This document shows, one piece after another, positions 46,085 to 50,432 of a stretch of 64,000 nucleotides of DNA. Origin of the DNA: Fodinibius halophilus (GTDB lineage: Bacteria; Bacteroidota; Rhodothermia; Balneolales; Balneolaceae); assembly GCF_011059105.1 (NCBI RefSeq), contig NZ_JAALLS010000001.1, positions 186,001 to 250,000 of the forward strand. Reading direction: 5' to 3'. A program made the position numbers and the translations under genes. The notes below the pieces were generated by a model that saw only the letters and a program-made list of their open reading frames with translations, was not told the origin of the DNA and did no database searches. Each line of letters begins with the position of its first letter. Position 1 is the stretch's first letter.

Positions 46085-46554
46085 CACTGGCGGCAATAGT
46101 TGCACATGATCCAAACTTAGTGATCGGAAAAGATGGCGATCTTCCGTGGCATTATTCCGAGGATCTCCAATATTTTAAACGCATCACCATGGGGCATCCT
46201 ATGATTATGGGGCGGGTAGTGTTTGAAGAGCTCGATGAGAAACCGCTGCCCGGTCGCGAAAATATTGTATTGAGTCGGTCAAAAGATTATGAGCATGTGC
46301 CTACCTTTTCTTCGATTGATGAGGCAATGGAATATGTTAAGAATCAAGAAATTGTTTTTGTAATCGGTGGTGGAAAGGTCTATCGGCAGTTTATGGATGG
46401 TATTGATAAGCTGTTTGTTACCGAAATAAAGGAATCCTTTGAAGGGGATACTTATTTCCCGGAGTATCGGGATGAGATCGGCACTACATGGAAAGAGGTG
46501 AAGCGCGAGGATAAGCAAGAGCTCGCTTTTGTGGTGTATGAGCGTATGGAATAG
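46081..46554 (+). CDS. folA: Dihydrofolate reductase
   Basis: A 157-residue enzyme with the family motifs in order: VIGKDGDLPWH near 14, the acidic active-site residue in SEDLQYFKRIT (about 25-35), MGHPMIMGR near 36, NIVLSRS near 60 and the NADPH segment VFVIGGGKVYRQF near 94. It is coupled to thyA by an ATGA overlap, the classical arrangement. Confidence 0.96.
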   Translation: MTLAAIVAHDPNLVIGKDGDLPWHYSEDLQYFKRITMGHPMIMGRVVFEELDEKPLPGRENIVLSRSKDYEHVPTFSSIDEAMEYVKNQEIVFVIGGGKVYRQFMDGIDKLFVTEIKESFEGDTYFPEYRDEIGTTWKEVKREDKQELAFVVYERME

Positions 46555-46585
46555 CTGTAGTGAAAATTTTAGAGATATAATTAGA

Positions 46586-46607
46586 CCTGAACTATCGTGA
46601 GTTCAGG
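46586..46607. terminator. Small hairpin between the convergent folA and HD gene
   Basis: CCTGAACT (46586-46593) pairs with AGTTCAGG (46600-46607). There is no strong T run, so termination activity is a guess from its position between converging genes. Confidence 0.35.
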
Positions 46608-46733
46608 CGACTCTGCAGAATAGATGAATATATTTTTTTCTTCCAAGGCAGAATATAAGGTGGAGAATTATATTCTGGGTTCTGATTTCTGGATTCCCCA
46701 GCCTTTTATAATTAAAAATTAACTGCCGTTCTG

Positions 46734-47996
46734 CTATCCTTCCACATCGATACTCTTTAGATGCACCACATATGGCTTGACGACCGGCTGGGTAAGGGCG
46801 ATGATATTCTGCGTATCAGCTGCTTTTGAAAATTCTACTGCCTTATCTTTCTCTTCCAGTATCCATATACCTTCGTTTTCGTAGCGGTAGGCCTCGCTGT
46901 AGCTTTCATCAAAGCAAAAGTAATACGATGACGATTCATCATCATAGGGTAGGCCTTTTTCTTTGAGCGTCTTCTGCGTTTTTGCTTTTACCTGTTTGAC
47001 CAGCTTTTTGGTTGGTTTTTTGTTTAAAAAGGTAGTTCGGAATAAAGAACGCGCCTGAAAGCGTTTGCACAAATTTGCCAGAATTAGATCATCAGAGTGT
47101 TGCCAGTACTTAATGCTCTGAAAAACATCGTTATCATCCAGCTGCAGGTATTGTTCCAGAACTTTTGTTGACACTCCTTTTTTTGCACTGGGCTGGTTTT
47201 CCAAGAAAAACTGCAGGGCAGGGGAGGCGTGGTACAGTTTTTCACCTTCAGCAATAAGCTCACGGACCCGCCTGAAAATATTCCGTATCAGGATATCGGC
47301 ACTTAGTACTGTCTTGTGCAGGTAAACCTGCATATACATTAACCTACGCGCTAAAATATAGTTTTCAATAGCATAAATTCCCTTTTTTTCGATGACAATA
47401 TTTCCCTTATGTACCCGCATCGTTTTAAGGATTCGCTCAATTCCCACAGAGCCTTCATAAACCGAGGTAAACGCACTATCTCTTTTTAAATAGTCGAGGC
47501 GATCGATATCAAGTTGTGAAGAAATAAGTTGGTTCAGGAAAGGCTTTTTTGCATACTGGTCGGTAAAAATCTTGATGGTCAGATCCAGGGCCCCGTTCAT
47601 CTCTTTGTTGAGATACTTCATCACTGCAAGCGTCATCTTTTCGTGATGAAAATCCGTAATAAGATTAAATTCGAGCGTGTGAGACAGGGGGCCGTGCCCT
47701 ACATCATGAAGCAATACAGCAATGAGGGTTGCTTCATATTCAGCCGGACTAATAGTGGTATCTTTTTCGCGCAGGTTGTTTAAGGTGCGTTGTGCCAGCT
47801 CCATGGCTCCCAGTGCGTGAGAAAACCGGGAATGCTCAGCAGCAGGAAATACCAAGTAACCAAGCCCCATCTGTTTAATTCTGCGAAGACGTTGTACATA
47901 TGGATGATCAATAAGGTCAAGAATAATCCCTTTGGGTACGGTTATAAAACCGTGGATGGGATCGTTGAATATTTTGTACTGTGTGCTTTTATCCAT
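46734..47996 (-). CDS. HD-domain phosphohydrolase (dGTPase/SAMHD1-like superfamily)
   Basis: With ATG at 47996 the protein has 420 residues; a GTG at 48008 would add four. The HD site is seen as HSRFSH (55-60) and LLHDVGHGPLSH with His97-Asp98, plus a later DIDRLDYLKRDS near 168 that supplies the last metal aspartate. The start KIFNDPIHGFITVP is typical of the YdhJ/SAMHD1-like group. Members hydrolyse dNTPs or related nucleotides; the substrate here is not known. Part of its 5' end is copied at 48476-48518. Confidence 0.88.
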   Translation of the reverse strand: MDKSTQYKIFNDPIHGFITVPKGIILDLIDHPYVQRLRRIKQMGLGYLVFPAAEHSRFSHALGAMELAQRTLNNLREKDTTISPAEYEATLIAVLLHDVGHGPLSHTLEFNLITDFHHEKMTLAVMKYLNKEMNGALDLTIKIFTDQYAKKPFLNQLISSQLDIDRLDYLKRDSAFTSVYEGSVGIERILKTMRVHKGNIVIEKKGIYAIENYILARRLMYMQVYLHKTVLSADILIRNIFRRVRELIAEGEKLYHASPALQFFLENQPSAKKGVSTKVLEQYLQLDDNDVFQSIKYWQHSDDLILANLCKRFQARSLFRTTFLNKKPTKKLVKQVKAKTQKTLKEKGLPYDDESSSYYFCFDESYSEAYRYENEGIWILEEKDKAVEFSKAADTQNIIALTQPVVKPYVVHLKSIDVEG

Positions 47997-48136
47997 GTGT
48001 TTACCCACCCCAACCCCTCCCTACAAATAGGGAGGGGCATCCGGTGCTTAGTTTAAATGGTGAAGAATTTTAGTTCTTACTGCTTTTAAGTTACTTAGTT
48101 CGTTGTTATTCAAGCGCAGGACGGTTAATCCTTTTT
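47959..48136. repeat. Direct repeat copy 1 (HD 5' end, palindrome, DUF559 3' end)
   Basis: These about 178 bases recur at 48476-48653 without gaps and with about nine mismatches counted by eye. The copy includes the first 14 codons of the HD gene, the palindrome at 48014-48037 and the last 30 or so codons of the DUF559 gene. This copy is the one with both genes intact. Confidence 0.85.
48014..48037. repeat. Palindrome on the left of the DUF559 gene
   Basis: CCCCTCCCTA (48014-48023), loop CAAA, TAGGGAGGGG (48028-48037): a perfect 10-base stem with C-rich flanks (ACCCACCCCAA on one side, GCATCCGG on the other). It could double as a terminator for the DUF559 gene, but similar palindromes on the other side suggest a repeat family. 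Confidence 0.75.
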
Positions 48137-48413
48137 TCTGTAAAATTAAATCTCGTTGTTCGTCATAATTCCTCTGGAAATCATGAATCTTGCCATCCAG
48201 CTCGATGACCAACTTCTTTTCTGCGCAATAGAAGTCGGCGATAAAAAAGTAAATGTTATCCTGTTTTTGTTTGTAAGTAATCGGATGTTGTCGCAGGAAT
48301 TTACAGCCATTCAGTCTGCGTTTACGTAACACCTCCCACAGTTTGCGTTCAGAATCCGTTGGGTTTTTACGCAGTTTTCGTGCTAACTCTTTAATGGACT
48401 TAAAAGTGTTCAT
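48048..48413 (-). CDS. DUF559 (Vsr/PD-(D/E)XK-like) endonuclease-domain protein
   Basis: A 121-residue protein with the DUF559 pattern: N-terminal LRKNPTDSERKLWEVLRKRR, then RQHPI, FIADFYCAEKKLVIELDG with the presumed metal ligands Asp and Glu, and the C-terminal RDLILQKKGLTVLRLNNNEL. The family belongs to the restriction-endonuclease-like fold related to Vsr. It stands alone, bounded on both sides by CCCTCCCTA palindromes, and a fragment of it is repeated upstream. The biological role of these short stand-alone nucleases is not established. Confidence 0.88.
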   Translation of the reverse strand: MNTFKSIKELARKLRKNPTDSERKLWEVLRKRRLNGCKFLRQHPITYKQKQDNIYFFIADFYCAEKKLVIELDGKIHDFQRNYDEQRDLILQKKGLTVLRLNNNELSNLKAVRTKILHHLN

Positions 48414-48431
48414 GGGTCCGTGCTTCAGTCC

Positions 48432-48455
48432 CCCTCCCTAAAGCATTAGGGAGGG
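48432..48455. repeat. Palindrome on the right of the DUF559 gene
   Basis: CCCTCCCTAA (48432-48441), loop AGCA, TTAGGGAGGG (48446-48455), with C- and G-rich flanks (CAGTCCC, CCGGGGAGGG). It shares the CCCTCCCTA core with the palindrome at 48014-48037, so the nuclease gene is bracketed by two related hairpins. Confidence 0.75.
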
Positions 48456-48475
48456 CCGGGGAGGGTTTGGAAATC

Positions 48476-48653
48476 GGATCATTGAAGATCTTGTACTGTG
48501 TGCTTTTATCCATCTGTTTACCCACCCCAACCCCTTCCTACAAATAGGGAGGGGCATCCGGGGCTTAGTTTAAGTGGTGAAGAATTTTAGTTCTTACTGC
48601 TTTTAAGTTACTTAGTTCGTTGTTATGCAAGCGTAGGACGGTTAATCCTTTTT
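48476..48653. repeat. Direct repeat copy 2, with broken HD and DUF559 fragments
   Basis: This copy, 517 bases from copy 1, holds 14 codons of the HD gene start (complement of 48518-48477, reading MDKSTQYKIFNDPI and then diverging), a palindrome CCCCTTCCTA/TAGGGAGGGG at 48531-48554 with one mismatch, and a 3' piece of the DUF559 gene (see next entry). Beyond 48653 the similarity stops abruptly. Confidence 0.8.
48565..48653 (-). pseudogene. 3' fragment of a second DUF559 nuclease gene
   Basis: About 29 codons equal to the end of the DUF559 gene at 48048, including the terminal LHHLN and stop, with a few base changes. The upstream part is missing, so it cannot be expressed as a nuclease. Confidence 0.75.
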
Positions 48654-48688
48654 CCGCGCTATTGCCTCAAAGGTAACCAGCAGCTTCC

Positions 48689-49135
48689 TCATTCAAAAAG
48701 GCTTTCTGGAAGTATATACTTTTCCCGGTTTGGTATTTCAGGCAGACGAGTGGGACGCTGATTGTTGAGATCAAACCAGACACCATGGGCAGTTGCAGTA
48801 GAAGCAAGCCTTTTTTTATCAGCAATATAAATGGCCTGGAAACTGGTGATGCTGGAATTACCTAACGTTTTTATTCCGGATCCAATGACAATATCAGCAG
48901 GATATTCCACCGGATTAATGAAATTGATTTCGATGTTGGCTAACACAAAGCTATACCCATTTTTTAGCTGGTCGGCCAGTCTGTTCACATCCTGTATGAA
49001 ACTGATGCGGGCTTCTTCGTAATAGGTACTAAAAATAGCATTATTGACATGATTTAGAGGATCTAAATCTCTAAAACGAATAGTAATAGTCGTCCAGTGG
49101 GGAAAAGTATCTTTATTAAATTCAGGTCGCTTCAT
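48689..49135 (-). CDS. Acyl-CoA thioesterase, hotdog fold (4HBT/YbgC-like)
   Basis: A 148-residue single hotdog domain. TIRFRDLDPLNHVNNAIFSTYYEEAR (residues about 18-43, quoted in part as RFRDLDPLNHVNN) contains the catalytic aspartate and the HVNN helix of the 4-hydroxybenzoyl-CoA thioesterase family, and the C-terminal strand ends in TATAHGVWFDL. It should hydrolyse an acyl-CoA, of unknown chain. It is alone on the minus strand, upstream of the duplicated nuclease fragment. Confidence 0.87.
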   Translation of the reverse strand: MKRPEFNKDTFPHWTTITIRFRDLDPLNHVNNAIFSTYYEEARISFIQDVNRLADQLKNGYSFVLANIEINFINPVEYPADIVIGSGIKTLGNSSITSFQAIYIADKKRLASTATAHGVWFDLNNQRPTRLPEIPNREKYILPESLFE

Positions 49136-49352
49136 AGCAAATGGTTACTTAGAAAAATCATTAATAAAATAAAAAAGCTGTTACATATGAACAGATTTTG
49201 ATGGCGAGTTGGCCATTATTTAAAAACTTTTAAGATGTGATCTTATATGGGTAATTCAAAAATTGAGAAGCGGGAAATTACATTTAAATGAACAATGTTG
49301 AATACTTATATTCCCAAACGTTAATAACGGAACCTAACAAAATACGACCCCT

Positions 49353-50432
49353 ATGTTTGATCCTGCTGAAAAAGATTTTTTAGAAGAACTACTAATTACT
49401 CCAAGCCCCACCGGCTTTGAATCTGCCGGACAGAAAGTGTGGAAAGGTTATGTAGAGCAATTTGCTGATGAAGTTCAAGCTGATGCCTATGGATCCGCAA
49501 TGGCAAAATTGAATACCAGTTTTGATGTTATTACCGTGATGATTGAAGCACACTGCGATGAGATCGGAATGATTGTGCAGCATATTACTGACAAAGGCTT
49601 TATCTATATAAATAAGTTAGGAGGCAGCGACTCTACCATTGCACGCGCCAAAAAGGTTAACATTCATACCAAAGACGGTATTGTTTCCGGCGTAACCGGA
49701 AATACCGCGATTCACCTGCAGGACAAAAAGAACGGCGGGGGCAAAGAGCCCGCCTGGAAAGATATTTATGTTGATATAGGTGCTTCAAGTAAAGAAGAAG
49801 CCTTGAAAATGGTACAGGTGGGAGACCCGATTACTTATGCTGATGAGCATGATTACCTTTCCGAAAATATTTTAACAGGAAGAGCTTTGGACAATCGTAT
49901 TGGCGGTTTTATCATTGCTCAAGTGCTAAAAAAACTAAACGAGCAACGCAAAGATCTCGCTGTAAATGTAGTTGCACTTAACTCGGTACAGGAAGAAGTG
50001 GGCGGTTATGGCGCACGGATGATGAGTTACCGGCTAGATCCGGATATGGCATTAGTAACCGATGTCACCCATGCGACTGATACTCCGGGTATTAATAATA
50101 AAGAACACGGTTTGGTAAAGTTGGGAGAGGGGCCGGCGATACAGCACGGAGGTGCTAACCATCCCAAAATTGTAGAGTTTGTTGAAAAAGTTGCTGAAGA
50201 AAAAGAGATCGATATTCAGCATGAAGCTACGAGTGTGCGTACAGGCACCGATACTGACAGTATCTTTTATCAAAAGACCGGTATACCGAGTGCTCTTATT
50301 TCACTGCCTCTGCGATATATGCATTCGCCTGTTGAGACAGCCTCTGTCAACGATGTCGAATCTCTGATTACGCTAATGACGGATGCTATTCTATCATTAG
50401 AACCCGATCAGACTTTCCATGTTTTAAAATGA
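49353..50432 (+). CDS. M42-family metallo-aminopeptidase
   Basis: A 359-residue cocatalytic metallopeptidase. Metal ligands and catalytic residues fit M42: EAHCDEIGMIV near 66 (first His), RALDNRIGGF near 178 (Asp), SVQEEVGGYGARM near 213 (Glu pair), VTDVTHATDTPG near 236 and the final RYMHSPVETAS with the last His. A regulatory PDZ-like lobe lies at about 75-165. Such enzymes form dodecamers that degrade short peptides in the cytoplasm; some act as glucanases. Confidence 0.93.
   Translation: MFDPAEKDFLEELLITPSPTGFESAGQKVWKGYVEQFADEVQADAYGSAMAKLNTSFDVITVMIEAHCDEIGMIVQHITDKGFIYINKLGGSDSTIARAKKVNIHTKDGIVSGVTGNTAIHLQDKKNGGGKEPAWKDIYVDIGASSKEEALKMVQVGDPITYADEHDYLSENILTGRALDNRIGGFIIAQVLKKLNEQRKDLAVNVVALNSVQEEVGGYGARMMSYRLDPDMALVTDVTHATDTPGINNKEHGLVKLGEGPAIQHGGANHPKIVEFVEKVAEEKEIDIQHEATSVRTGTDTDSIFYQKTGIPSALISLPLRYMHSPVETASVNDVESLITLMTDAILSLEPDQTFHVLK

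Follow-up and report, generated by a model that had tools for sequence, protein, structure and literature searches.

Locus organization

The locus analyzed here raises the question of whether a short nuclease gene enclosed by two related palindromes is a copy of an element that carries its own palindromic ends to new places. It lies in a 64-kb stretch of Fodinibius halophilus DNA (the window, in whose positions the coordinates of this locus are given). An earlier note on this DNA had described a complete short Vsr-like nuclease gene bracketed by two hairpins that share CCCTCCCTA, and had suggested a nuclease-repeat cassette with a REP-like layout. The association of gene and palindromes and the presence or absence of the insertion in related genomes, both reported below, support such a cassette, and we consider it probable (about three chances in four) that it is a copy of a widespread mobile palindromic element, made up of a stand-alone Vsr-like nuclease (DUF559/YcjD) between two inverted triplex motifs. 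The features of the locus are as follows:

48048–48413, minus strand: DUF559 (Vsr-like PD-(D/E)XK) nuclease gene, 121 aa (Pfam PF04480, E = 6e-31)
48003–48037, minus strand: triplex motif 1, with the tag (third strand) at 48003–48011, a 2-nt loop TT and the hairpin at 48014–48037 (hairpin search and third-strand rule)
48432–48470, plus strand: triplex motif 2, inverted relative to motif 1, with the hairpin at 48432–48455, the loop CCG and the third strand at 48459–48467 (hairpin search and third-strand rule)
48520–48554, minus strand: triplex motif 3, inside the duplicated stretch, with the tag at 48520–48528, the loop TT and the hairpin at 48531–48554, which has one arm mismatch (sequence reading, repeat search and third-strand rule)
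48473–48653, no strand: partial second copy of 47956–48136, 94% identical (repeat search)
48472–48513, minus strand: 14-codon 5′ fragment of the HD-domain gene, ending beside the outer end of triplex motif 2 (sequence reading and repeat)
48565–48653, minus strand: 3′ end of a second, truncated DUF559 copy (sequence reading and repeat search)
46734–47996, minus strand: host gene for an HD-domain protein (all 12 genomes of the genus have an orthologue)
48689–49135, minus strand: host gene for a thioesterase (in the 11 other genomes of the genus it comes after the HD gene with no cassette in between, by eye)

The nuclease ORF is complete (106.9 bits with the PF04480 profile, the cut-off being 20.6) and is enclosed by the hairpins of motifs 1 and 2, both of which have perfect arms of 10 nt each. 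The hairpin arms of the window are CCCCTCCCTA and CCCTCCCTAA. The sequence CCCTCCCTA occurs five times in the 64 kb, always within 48015–48553; the mean in 100 shuffled sequences was 0.37 and none of them reached five. As a palindrome these letters hold for this locus but not in general: what is general is a pyrimidine-first arm together with a third strand. It is because of these third strands, or tags, which the earlier note did not include, that the hairpins of the window are triplex motifs. The hairpin is flanked on one side by a G-rich tag that reads as a mirror image of the purine arm, in which G faces G, and A faces T or A, the pattern of a purine-motif intrastrand triplex. All three motifs of the window comprise a pyrimidine arm, a purine arm and a mirroring third strand; the latter fits the rule at every scored position, and a triplex is predicted from the sequence. 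The limits proposed earlier, 48003–48470, coincide with the outer ends of the tags or lie at most 3 bases from them.

The earlier note did not mention a 181-bp partial tandem duplication, which contains the 14-codon HD fragment, the third triplex motif and the 3′ end of the second DUF559 copy. Read along the minus strand, the order is DUF559 3′ end, triplex motif, 14 HD codons, complete cassette and complete HD gene, and the junction between the outer edge of motif 2 and the HD fragment lies inside the HD reading frame. This arrangement may reflect a second cassette that arrived together with the neighboring start of the HD gene. ATG 47996 is our own reading of that start, the listed ORF starting at GTG 48008. 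An Rfam search of positions 46500–50000 matched no family.

Association of the motifs with DUF559 genes in the Balneolaceae

A DUF559 match was found in 43 of the 58 genomes of the family set. We analyzed 36 loci, namely the seven of the own genome and the best-scoring locus of each of 29 other genomes, with a detector that accepts arms of at least 6, a loop of 0–9 and outer six bases that are all pyrimidines, at least four of them G/C. Thirty of the 36 loci have such a pyrimidine-first hairpin within 400 bp (16 on both sides, 14 on one side; six have none). In the same 58 genomes, it accompanies one of 30 ParE toxin loci and none of 30 Y1_Tnp (RAYT-type) loci, although 20 of the latter have other GC hairpins. 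The palindrome class therefore differs between the two enzyme families of the same genomes. By eye, C-rich hairpins are present near all seven DUF559 matches of the own genome.

Genome-wide counts of palindromes and of DUF559 genes are correlated over the 58 genomes (Spearman 0.48, p = 1.6e-4), and palindrome counts compared by presence or absence of DUF559 gave a one-sided p of 0.011; one DUF559-free genome (G014) has 16 palindromes vs. 17 for the control pattern. In the own genome, contigs that have no DUF559 match carry two copies of a CCCCTCC motif (loci L016 and L017, around 1480–1620). By eye, these copies share sequence well beyond the hairpin, like non-autonomous copies. At two other loci (L021 and L028), motif pairs are repeated in tandem with periods close to 154 and 180 bp, over a stretch from approximately 480 bp ahead of the match start to 820 bp past it, and one spacer holds the nuclease gene.

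Association across phyla

Gene and motif are associated across phyla. A scan of species genomes gave at least 557 confirmed DUF559 stretches, of which the best 80 were kept. As this selection favors close relatives of the query, the family set described above, a Pfam-profile set and a viral-contig set were added. Within the best 80 of at least 557 loci, the 73 with a hairpin label cover 18 named phyla, Bacteroidota being the largest (35), and four loci of the 73 have no phylum.

In the flanks of these best 80 of at least 557 loci, pyrimidine-first hairpins number 192 in 45.7 kb (4.2/kb) within 300 bp and 27 in 616 kb (0.04/kb) at 1–6 kb; the purine-first mirror control gave none within 500 bp and three in all, and other hairpins show a flat density of about 3/kb. 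At least 400 bp are available on each side in 64 of the best 80 of at least 557 loci: 42 have the motif on both sides, 16 on one and six on none. When 16,062 random placements were made in the same loci, 2.9% had any hairpin and none had hairpins on both sides. The co-occurrence of nuclease and palindrome that the earlier note had in mind is thus borne out both within the family and beyond it.

The detector used at first (arms of at least 7, loop of 3–8) left 22 of the 64 loci without motif, and was widened to arms of 6 and a loop of 0–9 because some of these 22 loci, and others, turned out on reading to have shorter arms or loops. This change came after the data had been seen, and the random control was re-run with the widened detector; the six loci still without motif were retained in the count. 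The first detector had already given 4.05/kb at 0–100 bp vs. 13 hairpins in 616 kb at 1–6 kb, with no purine-first hairpin within 300 bp.

Thirty Pfam-profile loci from 16 genomes across phyla, a set that partly overlaps the 80 loci because its genomes were reached through them, have the motif on both sides in 18 cases, on one side in nine and on none in three. The corresponding figures for 30 viral-contig loci are 15, five and 10. Another arm type, mostly CCTCCCCC or TCCCCC, was seen on both sides at 14 of 25 viral-contig loci (L053–L077), and phage records gave three matches. Loci from the plasmid collection (E. coli, N. gonorrhoeae, Synechocystis and Azospirillum) each have one hairpin, on one side.

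Covariation of motif type with nuclease lineage

The hairpin type tracks the nuclease tree. A tree of 80 proteins was built by a quick method (the best 80 of at least 557), and a seven-letter arm type was assigned to 73 loci. The arm type changes 17 times on this tree vs. a mean of 37.6 for shuffled labels (minimum of 300 shuffles, 32). When labels were shuffled within phyla, the mean was 32.1 and the minimum 25, and none of 300 shuffles was as low as 17. When each protein is compared with its closest relative from a different phylum, the arm types agree in 31 of 69 cases vs. 18.3 expected, and six of 2,000 shuffles were as high as 31. DUF559 copies of one genome can differ in their arms, as in G062, G064, G070 and G072.

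The third-strand rule

The third strand is fully matched in 61% of the 199 flank hairpins of the best 80 of at least 557 loci vs. 1.5% with shuffled flanks. In the 68% of the 199 hairpins that score 0.75 or more, the letter opposite A is T in 196 cases, A in 70, G in 6 and C in 1, and the letter opposite G is G in 706 of 713. The preference for T is not built in, since T and A score alike, within a set that is conditioned on a good score. The rule is kept with arms as different as CCCCTCC/GGGGTGG, CCCCTCT/GGGGTGT, CCCCCTT/GGGGGTT and TCCCTCC/AGGGAGG, and the relation that it describes is given by neither direct nor inverted repetition. Its conservation in different phyla and with differing arms suggests selection for the triple-stranded form as such.

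Both nearest tags were resolved at 33 loci. They both face the gene at 24 of them, both point outward at two and are mixed at seven; being inverted to each other at 26 of the 33, they form inverted ends like those of a TIR transposon. The tags of the window both point outward, an arrangement found at only two of the 33 resolved loci. Its loops TT and CCG recall the pairs of type A (TTA) and type B (CCG) of E. coli.

Occupied and empty sites in related genomes

The cassette is an insertion that is present or absent at given sites of sister species. The HD gene is present in 12 of 12 genomes of the genus, followed in each by the thioesterase gene (by eye), and the site between both is occupied only in the own genome. 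Upstream, the 11 empty alleles lack a DUF559 signature over 1500 bp and a pyrimidine-first hairpin over 700 bp. As there is one occupied genome among twelve, gain is the simpler reading for the window site. By the same test of signature and hairpin, the hemF site is occupied in four genomes and empty in eight. At the meaB site, two of 12 genomes are occupied and 10 have neither gene nor hairpin; this site was not counted as a clean comparison because the next upstream gene of the own genome differs. The occupied and empty sites expected of a spreading cassette in the earlier note are therefore found at the window and hemF sites.

Pooling the three sites, the hairpin is present in 0 of 29 alleles without DUF559 (700 bp upstream) and in six of seven occupied alleles, while the seventh (L258) has a short contig flank, which put its reading out of register. 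Flanks at the compared sites are too diverged or too altered by deletions for exact ends, and no clear target duplication was found in them. Other palindromes were seen in two empty alleles: one resembling TGCTGAAC...GTTTCAGCA in the HD-thioesterase gap of L080, one of the 11, and another palindromic repeat, resembling CACAGATTAACA..., in the hemE-hemF gap of L264.

The E. coli repeats BoxC/PIT/TM and ycjD

In E. coli, BoxC, PIT and TMECO are names of the same intrastrand triplex motifs, with 23 copies in MG1655 according to PMC4666352. The same text reports that the TMECO triplex is stable in vitro and that in vivo footprinting in E. coli gave no triplex signal, and its authors state that mobility activities were never found around the motif sites. 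The words "ycjD," "nuclease" and "DUF" do not occur in its main text.

The E. coli gene ycjD, located between sapF and fabI, is a DUF559 gene. TMECO no. 9, which Table 1 of PMC4666352 places at 1,351,204–239, falls in the interval from fabI to ycjD of the MG1655 annotation. The K-12-type strain EPI300 has the sequence of no. 9 on the 3′ side of ycjD, and nos. 16, 19 and 22 have the same letters. In our reading, the stop codon of ycjD lies within the first motif-like stretch. The ycjD locus fits the TMECO consensus CCCTCNCCCN3-6GGGNGAGGGN3GGGNGAGGG; this exact consensus represents the E. coli type, and the motifs of the window depart from it. A 2005 study (PMC1189080) detected Vsr with YcjD as a PD-(D/E)XK query.

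At least 80% of the ycjD region is present in 3,362 of 5,426 E. coli genomes. Two genomes without it have efflux genes at that place, named eefRABCD in PMC12817139. The 12-nt difference in ycjD length given in that source fits, in our reading, a 12-nt motif-tag gap in the alignment. E. coli genomes without the ycjD context still have motifs; among 40 E. coli records, more BoxC places accompany the ycjD context, a difference that is confounded by phylogroup. Upon reading eight regions, the BoxC loci hrpB-mrcB, alx-sstT and lldD-trmL were found to vary among E. coli, and this variation includes arm-to-arm deletions and larger replacements, not only clean presence or absence. No clear target duplication was seen at these three loci. 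At lldD-trmL of BL21 (L186), an inverted repeat, which we take to resemble a Tn5/IS50 end, stands in place of the interior of the BoxC pair.

The motifs described here share with BoxC/PIT/TM the pyrimidine-first hairpin, the short second loop (TTA or CCG types), the G-rich third strand, the inverted pairs and the dispersal between genes. They differ from the published repeats in their arm sequences and in bracketing a nuclease gene across many phyla. No link between DUF559, YcjD or other Vsr-like nucleases and these repeats was found in titles and abstracts of the open-licence literature. In the preferred explanation, each motif consists of a pyrimidine-first hairpin and a one-sided G-rich third strand, and the repeats known as BoxC, PIT or TM are copies of the motifs without the gene. 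The same nuclease-palindrome pairing across many phyla, E. coli included, suggests that the nuclease is the missing partner that spreads orphan triplex repeats. On balance, we incline to regard the element as a second, RAYT-independent class of palindromic mobile elements, with a Vsr-like nuclease and intrastrand-triplex ends, as the origin of the orphan BoxC/PIT/TM repeats of E. coli and of other bacteria, and to take the covariation of the third strand as evolutionary evidence that triplexes form and matter in living cells. The link to one nuclease family provides a candidate enzyme for the repeats and a model gene in E. coli K-12, ycjD. If true, the widespread DUF559 family, whose function is unknown, would gain a role, and the strain-to-strain instability at these repeats would be easier to explain.

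The nuclease and its possible mode of action

The AlphaFold model of the window protein has a mean pLDDT of 87. Its nearest solved folds according to Foldseek are NGO0050 (3hrl, the only one with E < 0.001), PvuRts1I, I-Bth0305I (3r3p, rank 3) and AbaSI. A sequence profile search pointed to NGO0050, to the homing endonuclease I-Bth0305I (3r3p, E = 1.2e-5) and, weakly, to PvuRts1I. Residues E22, D60, E71 and D73, presumably catalytic, are invariant in 30 DUF559 sequences. Profile matches of the window protein are limited to DUF559 and a sub-threshold DUF2726, with no HUH/Y1 (PF01797) match. The YcjD, DUF559 and Vsr-like nucleases, among them NGO0050 (3hrl) and VsrA, belong to the same protein family as the window nuclease.

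RAYT enzymes are flanked by their own palindromes, which form inverted pairs, occur also as gene-less copies and follow the enzyme lineage in type. All four features of these REP/REPIN systems with RAYT (TnpA-REP) recur here: an enzyme flanked by its own palindromes, inverted pairs, gene-less copies and a lineage-linked palindrome type. The differences are that the enzyme is a PD-(D/E)XK nuclease and not HUH/Y1, that a triplex third strand replaces the GTAG- or CGTC-type tag, and that the RAYT-type genes of the same family lack these palindromes. The element is best explained as a REP/RAYT-like selfish element with a nuclease unrelated to RAYT and with triplex-forming ends. Counting against this explanation, hairpins are lacking in 10 of the 30 viral-contig loci and in six of the 36 family loci. 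The same is true of several results given above: the outward tags of the window, the negative footprinting in E. coli, the motifs in E. coli genomes that lack the ycjD context, the deletions and replacements at the three BoxC loci, the lack of a clear target duplication, and the altered gene order at meaB.

A nuclease of the Vsr-like kind can nick or break DNA and is not known to join it; we therefore propose that it acts at its own folded motif, the copying being left to host repair. The nuclease would recognize the motif when the motif strand is single, during replication or repair, and folded as hairpin plus third strand, and would nick or break DNA at the folded motif. Host repair might then place copies of the gene, or of just the motif pair, elsewhere. 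Such a process would be analogous to that of RAYT on REPs, with a nuclease-plus-repair chemistry in place of the HUH transposase. We infer both that the nuclease cuts the motif and how insertion proceeds chemically.

Alternative explanations

A possible but distinctly less probable explanation, which overlaps with the preferred one, is that of a homing-endonuclease-like element, in which a double-strand break at the target is repaired from the cassette and the motifs are homology arms or recombination-prone ends. The fold and profile matches to I-Bth0305I, which is likewise a small nuclease gene with a Vsr-like catalytic fold, agree with it, as does the duplication in the window, which in our reading looks like a one-ended invasion with its illegitimate end at the outer edge of motif 2. 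However, the 11 of 11 empty HD sites have no pyrimidine-first hairpin, so the motif of the cassette was apparently not the target there; the tracking of motif type with nuclease lineage and the dispersed gene-less motifs would be left unexplained, and, unlike homing endonuclease genes, the cassette has palindromic ends of its own and lies outside any intron or intein.

We consider it unlikely that a domesticated DUF559 serves in defense or repair, resolving triplexes or hairpins at stalled forks, with the clustering of motifs nearby as autoregulation. The Vsr-like fold would suit this role, and so would the finding that methylase-less cells of Caulobacter depend on VsrA, a protein with a DUF559 domain, for their DNA damage response (PMC12907096). 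The PADLOC matches are weak only (E from 1.4e-4 to 1.3e-3). The patchy occurrence, the several copies per genome with different motif types and the occupied and empty sites argue for a selfish element and against such a function.

It is very improbable that the motifs terminate or attenuate transcription of the DUF559 gene, or that they are GC hairpins of a generic kind close to the ends of genes. Hairpins do lie near both gene ends, and E. coli ycjD ends inside one. The purine-first mirror control speaks against this reading, as in the best 80 of at least 557 loci only pyrimidine-first arms occur within 500 bp, an arm-order bias that is not expected of RNA hairpins; in addition, such hairpins are lacking in 29 of 30 ParE loci of the family, and PIT elements showed no terminator or promoter activity in earlier tests cited in PMC4666352. 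Finally, that the palindromes are REPs of resident RAYT transposases beside which DUF559 merely inserted can practically be dismissed, Y1_Tnp genes being present in 40 of the 58 family genomes but never with this palindrome class (0 of 30 loci).

Motifs within reading frames

At the occupied hemF loci (4 of 12), the DUF559 frame continues into HemF through a linker encoded by the motif, in frames of 452–496 aa (loci L010, 1514–2998, L261, L267, L270 and L271; the Pfam check of the fusion was made on the own copy only). HemF in this frame is coproporphyrinogen oxidase. Rickettsia palindromic elements are palindromes inserted in frame into genes, and the motifs resemble them in encoding linkers such as HPPAPPSKGD; we know of no nuclease gene for those elements. 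The window protein has a sub-threshold, 13-residue match to NCBIfam RPE5 (Rickettsia palindromic element, E = 0.007). DUF559 and palindrome-encoded linkers were also seen in frame inside an Eco57I-type restriction-modification protein (DUF7149/DUF7814/Eco57I; whole loci L024 and L037, minus strand), apparently at the same place of the protein in two genera.
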